This document shows positions 1,990-27,021 of a DNA stretch of 39,832 nucleotides, one piece after another (within the stretch, counting starts at the first letter, position 1; each line of letters begins with the position of its first letter). The notes under the pieces were generated by a model. It did no database searches and was not told the DNA's origin. It saw only the letters and a program-made list of their open reading frames with translations. Both the position numbers and the translations under genes were made by a program. Source of the DNA: Candidatus Thioglobus sp. (GTDB taxonomy: Bacteria; Pseudomonadota; Gammaproteobacteria; PS1; Pseudothioglobaceae); the NCBI GenBank assembly GCA_008364125.1, contig VSKZ01000002.1:1-39832 (forward strand). The letters are read 5' to 3'.

Positions 1990-3063
1990 TTATAATTCTT
2001 TCATATTTTTAGTATTGGACAAAATTGCAACTAATTTTTGGTTGAAATAATAATTTTCTCGCCCGATTTTTTCCCGCATTAATAGCCCTTCTTGGGTTAA
2101 TTTTTCTAAATAGCGGCTCGCTGTTAGTCTGGACACACCTAAATCTTCCTGTAAAAAAGCAATTTTGGTATAGGGGTGTTTGAATATATTATTAATCAGT
2201 TCTTGTGAATAAATCTTGCCAAGTTTTTGCTTCATTATGCCTTTATATTCTTGCTGCAACTGTTTAATATTGTTGATAAGCGCTATGCTGTCTTTAGCTG
2301 TTCGCGTTACCGCGTTCAGCATAAAAATCGTCCATTCTTGCCAGTCGCCTGCGTCTCGCACGCTTTGCAATAATTGATAGTATTTGTCCTTATTGTGATT
2401 GATATAGCGACTTAAATATAAAACTGGCATATCCAGCAAGCCTTGCTGTAACAAATAAATAATATTGATAATGCGGCCGATACGCCCATTGCCATCATAA
2501 AACGGGTGGACGCTTTCAAACTGATGATGGATAATTGCCATTTTAATAAGCGGGTCTAAACCTGCCTCGCTACTGTTAATAAAGCGTTCCAAATCGCTTA
2601 GTAATGGTTGCAAATCCTGCGGCTGGGGCGGAGTATAAACAACTTCATTGGTAACATCATTGCGCAAAACCGTCCCTATTTGCGTCCTCACACCTGCCTC
2701 GTTGCCCTTTATAATTTTTTGCGCATAAATCATAGCGTTGATAGTAATCAGATTGTTGCCTTCCAACTGCTTATGGCAATATGTCAACGCCTCTGCATAA
2801 CGGCTAACTTCTTTTGTGGCTGCATTTGCGGCATTTGGCTGCAACCTGTATTTAAGAATTTCATCTTGGGTGGTGATTATGTTTTCAATCTCAGAGCTGT
2901 CTTGCGCCTCTTGCAAGGATAGGCTGTCAATCAAAATAGACGGATTTGGCACACTTTGGCACAGCCCTTTGAGCTCGCCCAAATGACGATGCGCCGCACT
3001 CAAAGCCTTTAAAATAGCTGTGGTTTCAAAATCATTTTTTAAAATGTCAGCAATATAAGGCAT
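1990..3063 (-). CDS. Fic-family protein adenylyltransferase with N-terminal inhibitory helix and C-terminal winged helix
   Basis: Fic proteins usually transfer AMP from ATP to hydroxyl side chains of target proteins. The 357-residue protein has the architecture of class II Fic enzymes such as Shewanella SoFic. The N-terminal part carries the inhibitory motif [S/T]xxxE[G/N] as SSEIEN (56-61), with E60 as the autoinhibitory glutamate. The catalytic loop HPFYDGNGRIGR (186-197) is intact, including H186. A C-terminal winged-helix domain follows (about 300-350, with LGVSRLTASRYLEKL as the recognition region). The ATG at 3063 has only a weak GGAT-like ribosome binding site. It lies on the same strand between anmK and pyrC, and identical 34-bp palindromes flank it. 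Enzyme family is certain; the target is unknown. Cis-inhibition would remove the need for a separate antitoxin, and none is seen. Confidence 0.93.
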   Translation of the reverse strand: MPYIADILKNDFETTAILKALSAAHRHLGELKGLCQSVPNPSILIDSLSLQEAQDSSEIENIITTQDEILKYRLQPNAANAATKEVSRYAEALTYCHKQLEGNNLITINAMIYAQKIIKGNEAGVRTQIGTVLRNDVTNEVVYTPPQPQDLQPLLSDLERFINSSEAGLDPLIKMAIIHHQFESVHPFYDGNGRIGRIINIIYLLQQGLLDMPVLYLSRYINHNKDKYYQLLQSVRDAGDWQEWTIFMLNAVTRTAKDSIALINNIKQLQQEYKGIMKQKLGKIYSQELINNIFKHPYTKIAFLQEDLGVSRLTASRYLEKLTQEGLLMREKIGRENYYFNQKLVAILSNTKNMKEL

Positions 3064-25915: not shown

Positions 25916-26001
25916 GCCGATGTGGTGAAATTGGTAGACACGCTACCTTGAGGGGGTAGTGGGCTATGCTCGTGCCAGTTCGACTCTGGCCATCGGCACC
26001 A
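25916..26001 (+). tRNA. tRNA-Leu(GAG), CCA encoded
   Basis: The acceptor stem GCCGATG/CATCGGC closes the molecule, the anticodon stem CTACC/GGTAG holds the loop TTGAGGG with anticodon GAG (25950-25952), and a long variable arm identifies a class II tRNA. The T-arm GCCAG-TTCGACT-CTGGC is intact, and discriminator A plus CCA (25998-26001) are encoded. It reads CUC and CUU codons. Its place 15 bases after secG matches E. coli leuU, so co-transcription with secG is likely. Confidence 0.97.
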
Positions 26002-26101
26002 TTTTTTGCCTTCTGCGGCGTTGAATTTTAAAAATACTTAGTTGCGTAGGAGAGCTACGCGCCTGCGTATTTTTAAAATCCGCCTTGCAGGAGACAAAAA
26101 T
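26001..26101. repeat. 100-bp imperfect palindrome abutting the tRNA 3' end
   Basis: Arms of about 36 bases (26001-26037 and 26067-26101) pair with a few small gaps. The inner 13 bases (26025-26037 and 26067-26079) are perfect. Between them is a separate hairpin, GCGTAG (26044-26049), a 5-base loop and CTACGC (26055-26060). The left arm begins at the last base of the tRNA CCA with a T6 run that could end the tRNA transcript. The overall form resembles a miniature inverted-repeat element, but no second copy is visible in this window. Confidence 0.8.
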
Positions 26102-26113
26102 ATTTGCAAAAAT

Positions 26114-26533
26114 TTAGATTGAAATTAGCTCAACGGACAGTTTGTGAGACTTTTCTATCATTTCTAAAAACTTTGGGTCTATCCTTTTTTTAAGCGATTC
26201 TATTCCTCCATCCTCAGAAATAAACACTAGTTTTTGTAGTTGGTTTTCCTCGTGATTTATATTATAGGTAAGCGCCTTTACAAGATCTTTGAAGAATTCG
26301 TGGTGGGCGTTTTTCCCAGATACCTTGAGCTCGTATGCTGTGCGGTTTGTGCGGTCAACAATATCTATTTTCTCGTTGTTGCTGGGCGATACCTTAACCT
26401 CGCTTCGTATCGTTTTGTTACAAACTGCATCTTGCCATTCCTTGGTAATAGTTATTGCCGAGCGGGTATAAGCGGACACATTGCCATTGGTAATTCGGTG
26501 TTCTCTGTGTATTTCTCTTAGCTTGTCAATCAT
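26114..26533 (-). CDS. Small PD-(D/E)XK nuclease-like protein of unknown function
   Basis: A 139-residue protein I do not recognise as a named family. It shows the core pattern of PD-(D/E)XK nucleases: D57 in KIDIVD, then E68 and K70 in AYELKVS, with an upstream acidic E33 in a helix and a following helix rich in conserved-type polar residues (HHEFFKDLVKALTY). The FISEDGG strand near the end would complete the fold. No DNA-binding domain is apparent. The ATG overlaps the folA stop (ATGA), so it is probably translated from the folA message. It could be a remnant or orphan restriction-type endonuclease, a DNA-repair protein, or an inactive fold member. No methyltransferase is nearby. Confidence 0.6.
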   Translation of the reverse strand: MIDKLREIHREHRITNGNVSAYTRSAITITKEWQDAVCNKTIRSEVKVSPSNNEKIDIVDRTNRTAYELKVSGKNAHHEFFKDLVKALTYNINHEENQLQKLVFISEDGGIESLKKRIDPKFLEMIEKSHKLSVELISI

Positions 26534-27021
26534 AACTGTTTCCTATCCAAAACCACAAAATCGTATGCGCTATTGTTTTTTTCATCGGCTGCGTGGGATT
26601 CTCGGGAGGTTTCGATGAAGTCGGCGCGGTTGAATTTGGGGAAATAGGCGTCGCCTTTGAAGCTGCCTTTGACTTCGGTGATGTAGATACGGTGGGCGTT
26701 TTGGAGGGTTTGTTGGTAGAATGAAGCGCCGCCTATTATCATTATTTCAGCGTCATTTTTTGCCAGCGCTAATGCAGCGTCAATGTTGCTGGCTGTCTCA
26801 ATGCCGGGGGCTTGGAAATCTGGGTTACGGCTGATGACGATATTGCGGCGATTTGGCAACGGTTTGCCGATGGAATCGTAAGTTTTGCGCCCCATTAACA
26901 CGGTTTTACCGGAGGTGGTTTGTTTGAAATATTGCAAATCTGCGGGCAAATGCCACGGCAGGGCGTTGTTATTGCCGATGAGTTGGTTTTCGTCCATTGC
27001 CACAATAATTGATAATTTCAT
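26530..27021 (-). CDS. folA: Dihydrofolate reductase
   Basis: Reduces dihydrofolate to tetrahydrofolate with NADPH for thymidylate and purine synthesis. The ATG at 27021 gives 163 residues beginning MKLSIIVAMDENQLIG; the open frame continues far upstream through the antisense of maf and is rejected. The substrate-binding D28 lies in LPWHLPADL, followed by VLMGRKTYDSIG and the nucleotide-binding IIGGASFY. It shares a 55-base divergent region with maf and overlaps the nuclease-like gene by four bases. Confidence 0.96.
   Translation of the reverse strand: MKLSIIVAMDENQLIGNNNALPWHLPADLQYFKQTTSGKTVLMGRKTYDSIGKPLPNRRNIVISRNPDFQAPGIETASNIDAALALAKNDAEIMIIGGASFYQQTLQNAHRIYITEVKGSFKGDAYFPKFNRADFIETSRESHAADEKNNSAYDFVVLDRKQL

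Follow-up and report, generated by a model that had tools for sequence, protein, structure and literature searches.

A small predicted PD-(D/E)XK-like nuclease family often carried on integron cassettes, with one copy lodged behind folA in Candidatus Thioglobus

The 39,832-nucleotide stretch of Candidatus Thioglobus sp., a sulfur-oxidizing bacterium of symbiont type, analyzed here (hereafter the window) encodes, directly behind folA, a stand-alone protein with a predicted PD-(D/E)XK fold whose relatives are, in five of the eight loci with both ends visible, integron gene cassettes. This mode of movement is newly shown here, and a search by title and abstract start found no published description of the nuclease family. 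Taken together, the evidence leads us to a moderately probable reading, in which the gene encodes a minimal restriction-type defense nuclease that acts without a methyltransferase, spreads on cassettes, and in the window lineage was stranded behind folA after transfer.

At the locus itself (Table 1), the start of the nuclease gene overlaps the folA stop within an ATGA motif, and a tRNA gene and a long palindrome lie beside the frame, as the first-pass annotation of this DNA had described. By eye, the remaining large ORFs of the window are housekeeping types around dnaA, and no methyltransferase, helicase partner, or defense gene was recognized among the window ORFs adjoining the nuclease gene, in keeping with its earlier designation as an orphan. 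One ORF set among the housekeeping genes, at window positions 1990–3063, resembles a Fic-family protein by eye. An argument for horizontal transfer from base composition was set aside as not decisive, the G+C content of dnaA (39.4%) being as low as that of the nuclease ORF (39.5%), with folA at 47.4%.

Table 1. Features of the window around the nuclease gene, and loci of its relatives in other genomes
Feature or locus	Position	Strand	Remarks
Stand-alone PD-(D/E)XK nuclease ORF, BglII/BamHI-like predicted fold	26114..26533	-	139 aa from ATG
D57 codon, strand 2	26363..26365	-	invariant in 9/9 rows of alignment A2
E68 codon, strand 3	26330..26332	-	invariant in 9/9 rows of alignment A2
K70 codon, strand 3	26324..26326	-	invariant in 9/9 rows of alignment A2
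E45 codon, strand 1, conserved acidic residue	26399..26401	-	invariant in 7 rows of alignment A4 (E46 in its first sequence)
ATGA, folA stop overlapped by nuclease start	26530..26533	-	sequence
AGGA, ribosome-binding-like motif near nuclease start	26541..26544		sequence
folA	26530..27021	-	DHFR_1, E 5.9e-65
tRNA-Leu (GAG)	25916..26001	+	
Imperfect palindrome between nuclease and tRNA	26003..26100	none	matches own reverse complement
25-nt arms of the palindrome	26025..26049 and 26055..26079		between tRNA-Leu (GAG) and nuclease ORF
L005			Tepidicella
L006			Marinobacter; one internal stop
L007			Marinomonas
L008 and L010			Gilvimarinus, two copies
L009			Epsilonproteobacteria MAG
L011			Thermodesulfovibrionales MAG
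L012			Vicingaceae MAG
L013			Bathymodiolus brooksi thiotrophic symbiont; contig end cuts gene; same stretch as L002 of genome G003
L014			Dehalococcoidia MAG; distant, frame-broken end fragment

An AlphaFold2 model of the window protein (mean pLDDT 94.9, pTM 0.89) displays the element order of a PD-(D/E)XK core (helix 19–37, strands 42–47, 55–60, and 65–70, helix 76–93, strand 101–106), with D57 placed on the second strand and E68 and K70 on the third. Structure comparison with VIA-align, run over the top chains returned by Foldseek, ranked the model closest to BglII (Z 9.7, rmsd 3.4, 127 of 139 residues aligned), BstYI (Z 9.3, rmsd 3.5, 124 aligned), OkrAI (Z 9.2, rmsd 3.7, 128 aligned), and BamHI (Z 8.6, rmsd 3.7, 123 aligned), followed at lower rank by NucS-type enzymes (Z 7.3–7.4), Can2, Card1, NucC, and CdiA-CT (Z 5.2). 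Foldseek alone gave weak matches against the PDB, the best being NucC at E 0.019 and none reaching E ≤ 0.001, and a profile of alignment A2 retrieved no PDB sequence at E ≤ 1. The same three solved folds came first for a second model, built from the L011 protein (54% identical to the window protein, pLDDT 85.3), with BglII at Z 8.8, OkrAI at 8.2, BstYI at 8.1, and the next match at 6.5. As modeled, the window protein is a nearly bare PD-(D/E)XK catalytic core, and its predicted fold and active site make it very likely to be a nuclease.

The enzymes closest in fold (BglII, BstYI, OkrAI, and BamHI) are of type IIP and work with a methyltransferase, a likeness which could also point to a type II restriction enzyme that stands as an orphan, its methyltransferase lost or encoded elsewhere in each genome, that is, to a remnant of a restriction-modification system. 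We consider this improbable given that the window's genome yielded neither PF02384 nor PF01555 in a search covering these two methyltransferase families, and that the only methyltransferase among 30 scanned neighbors of the relatives was the type I HsdM next to HsdS in L006. The restriction-type remnant entertained in the first-pass annotation also fits poorly with an intact frame and a conserved family, though copies in Marinobacter do decay.

The window protein had no NCBIfam match, and its matches to Pfam, PHROG, and PADLOC models were all sub-threshold or weak, including the best PADLOC ones (PDC-M38B, E 0.0014; GajA, E 0.0062); matches to Geminin, FtsK_SpoIIIE_N, and tail-fiber models were discarded as chance. 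When two conserved stretches of the protein were sought in a set holding a single genome for each species, ten loci emerged (Table 1), eight of them full-length (counting L006 with its internal stop) and two partial. We set aside four weak genome matches, L003, L004 (by eye similar to RmuC), L015, and L016, as either fortuitous or only very remotely related PD-(D/E)XK proteins. Alignment A2 holds nine rows, namely the window protein and eight relatives at 52–60% identity to it, L006 having been left out for its stop. The D/E/K residues at the positions of D57, E68, and K70 are also present in L006 and L014, and are hence unchanged in 11 of 11 loci; together with the predicted fold, this bears out the initial reading of the protein as a PD-(D/E)XK-like orphan nuclease. 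Further invariant residues, among others H77, H78, E79, K82, D83, K86, and Y90, fall in the helix after strand 3. No relative was detected in phages, plasmids, or viral contigs using the window protein, a Gilvimarinus relative, or the alignments as queries, nor in plasmids and phages using a 33-residue stretch of L014.

Across genomes the family is thinly scattered: it occurs in 2 of 83 genomes of the window's own family, in 2 of 124 in a search of the genus Marinobacter (one being a 28-residue relic), and in 1 of 48 and 1 of 144 in two further family searches. This patchiness, along with spread on cassettes, speaks against a nuclease of DNA repair or recombination that, like NucS/EndoMS, would target damage or mismatches, a role that the NucS-type fold matches would accommodate and that we regard as having a low probability. 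Where the gene is kept, it appears to be under purifying selection, with dN/dS between 0.12 and 0.27 in three pairs (0.12 for L005 against L008 and L010, which share 90–91% nucleotide identity with it; 0.27 between the two Gilvimarinus copies). We take L005 to come from a betaproteobacterium and L008 and L010 from a gammaproteobacterium.

Both ends are visible at loci L005 to L012 (n = 8), and the five that are integron gene cassettes (L005, L007, L008, L010, and L011) carry GTTAAAT in the 20 nt that precede the start codon, and ATTTAAC (RYYYAAC) across the stop; by comparison, of 135 other ORFs that begin with ATG and encode 100 aa or more, 3 have a GTTRRRY core in that place. No cassette ends were found at L006, L009, and L012. 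A scan for attC-like pairing placed sites behind the gene in L005, L007, and L011. It overlooked L008 and L010, in which the 3′ core does not conform to GTTRRRY. The attC bottom strands fold better than most shuffled sequences in four of the five cassettes (z −2.2 to −4.0), that of L008 being no better than its shuffles (z −0.79) though the core motifs are present. The L005 locus has four attC-like sites in an array, together with a truncated integron-integrase fragment at about L005:5037–5315, and full integron integrases above the family cut-off were found in 3 of the 10 genomes queried (G827, G828, and G829). These observations are best explained if the gene passes between phyla chiefly as an integron cassette that holds it alone.

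Integrons are also home to toxin–antitoxin modules, and the nuclease could by analogy be a conflict toxin that damages the DNA of its own cell once released from control. Seven of nine family members weakly match Tox-REase-9 (PF15650; best E 7.3e-5), CdiA-CT is among the fold matches as noted above, and the L005 array includes a two-gene cassette that by eye looks like what we take to be a Phd/YoeB-type pair. The single-gene nuclease cassettes, however, leave no space for an antitoxin (that of L007 spans about 0.49 kb), and the window protein scores 17 bits against the PF15650 cut-off of 27.3. We thus rate this toxin reading as unlikely.

Neither a GTTRRRY core nor an attC site was found flanking the window copy; a GTT just before its ATG is a possible cassette scar, too short to count. 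The window's genome (G000, 98.4% complete) has no integron integrase over the TIGR02249 cut-off, and its partial integrase matches are of a kind also given by all 14 control genomes. In four sister genomes (G001, G003, G006, and G011), the palindrome and then the tRNA gene come next after folA, leaving the site empty of a nuclease gene. The folA product ends in LDRKQL in the window and in LDRK or a close variant in most sister copies, which indicates that the folA stop was changed at the insertion, and the empty site and the altered folA end together indicate that the nuclease gene was inserted at the folA stop codon. It may have arrived through an integrase acting at a secondary site, with later loss of attC, or by another route.

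Since the nuclease gene is missing from sisters that keep both folA and the palindrome, its link to folA must be accidental and local, and the adjacency is indeed seen in the window's genome only. These two observations weigh against the earlier suggestion that the protein is a repair factor with a link to thymidylate metabolism. The palindrome, found at the same place in the four sisters, is older than the insertion, and we rejected it as part of the nuclease system on the same ground. It was likewise rejected as a dispersed repeat, as a search of its own genome returned the palindrome itself (on both strands) and one contig-end match. At nearly 100 bp (window 26003–26100), it may be a two-way terminator.

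The absence of an attC site at the window copy could also fit a passenger gene that is decaying or whose product is catalytically idle, particularly as the Marinobacter copies are broken, L006 by one stop and G914 down to a 28-residue relic. Yet the window frame is intact and all active-site residues are present, leaving this interpretation with little probability. The G914 relic (locus L061) matches the C-terminal end of the nuclease; close to it is a RhuM-like ORF, and a similar ORF is found near the broken L006 copy.

To gauge the company kept by the relatives, 30 neighboring proteins were scanned with PADLOC, the first ten having been picked for looking like defense genes. At E ≤ 1e-10, 8 of the 30 were matched, in four of the eight loci, and none of ten control proteins taken at arbitrary positions across this set of genomes; because of the pre-chosen first ten, this difference is suggestive only and not decisive. 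In L006, a ZacB/PDC-M27-like pair stands on one side of the nuclease gene and type I HsdM/HsdS on the other. In L010 the nuclease gene is followed by an LmuB-like gene (E 6e-69) and in L008 by an HNH gene matching the mREase_IV model (E 2e-31), and the L012 gene overlaps a WYL regulator gene with PDC-S26 nearby. No strong PADLOC match was obtained for neighbors of L005, L007, L009, and L011. Known or candidate defense genes are thus neighbors in half of the loci, although their enrichment is weak. In L010 (6542–10276), the lone nuclease cassette is directly followed by a three-gene set with the LmuB-like ATPase, the other two genes of which had no PADLOC or Pfam match; it is perhaps a new Lamassu-like variant. 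In the Vicingaceae MAG (L012:209–1589), the WYL-domain regulator gene overlaps the start of the nuclease gene, which suggests a regulated operon there.

Cassette mobility, patchy spread, purifying selection, the presence of defense genes beside half of the loci, and the anti-phage cassettes of integrons, which PMC12409362 describes in the part cited here as a known source of many anti-phage genes, together make defense the likeliest use of this protein. A new small defense nuclease is accordingly the best of the three options first put forward for this gene, favored by the neighborhoods and the cassette mobility of its relatives and short of proof. As a counterpoint, the window copy lies among housekeeping genes and not in a defense island. 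The lack of a methyltransferase makes an ordinary type II system less likely, and would favor either recognition of something that the host lacks or activation triggered by infection.

In our proposed model, the nuclease would be a minimal restriction-type core with a complete predicted D...E-x-K metal site. By analogy with the BglII/BamHI-like fold, it probably forms a homodimer that cuts double-stranded invading DNA. The host would probably be spared by recognition of modified or otherwise foreign DNA, as with type IV enzymes, or alternatively the nuclease may be switched on during infection. In the window lineage, the gene would have been captured behind folA, its attC lost or never present, and is now probably translated through the ATGA overlap.

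More tentatively, and with a clearly lower probability than the model above, these proteins may constitute a new methyltransferase-independent anti-phage nuclease family, among the smallest known and moving across phyla in single integron cassettes, whose members would be safe for any host by reading a feature of phage DNA instead of an unmethylated site, and one of which would have been domesticated through translational coupling to folA in a lineage of chemosynthetic mussel symbionts. Should phage restriction be borne out, the nuclease would rank near the lower size limit of self-contained restriction enzymes, mobile between distant bacteria without a protecting methylase, and the way in which such an enzyme avoids host DNA would become directly testable. 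The window copy would also illustrate how a cassette gene can leave its integron and take up a place after a housekeeping gene, here in a lineage of mussel-symbiont type.

Among known systems, BglII, BstYI, OkrAI, and BamHI share their fold with nearly the whole chain of the window protein (Z 8.6–9.7), as well as the D and E acidic pair. The window protein is nevertheless smaller, at 139 aa against 192–218 residues in the solved chains, and PvuII, at 18.3 kDa, is placed on the small side of type IIP subunits in the section of a review (PMC4081073) drawn on here. The third active-site position is K in the window protein, Q in BglII, and E in BamHI (same section of PMC4081073). Restriction-modification systems of the BglII/BamHI type include a cognate methyltransferase, whereas none was recognized beside the window nuclease gene, and the family has no sequence match to this group in the PDB at E ≤ 1. 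The resemblance to Tox-REase-9 consists of the weak profile match in seven of nine members, the window protein scoring below the curated cut-off and having neither a delivery domain nor an immunity gene. Integron anti-phage cassettes (Darracq et al. 2025; Kieffer et al. 2025), as portrayed in the cited part of PMC12409362, are likewise single small genes with an attC site and a patchy spread, sometimes next to other defense genes; unlike these, the window copy no longer has the form of a cassette, and the anti-phage role of its family is putative. Type IV (modification-dependent) enzymes, whose recognizable modified-base-binding domain the window protein lacks, likewise restrict without a methyltransferase, and an HNH gene resembling mREase_IV lies just downstream of the nuclease gene in L008.
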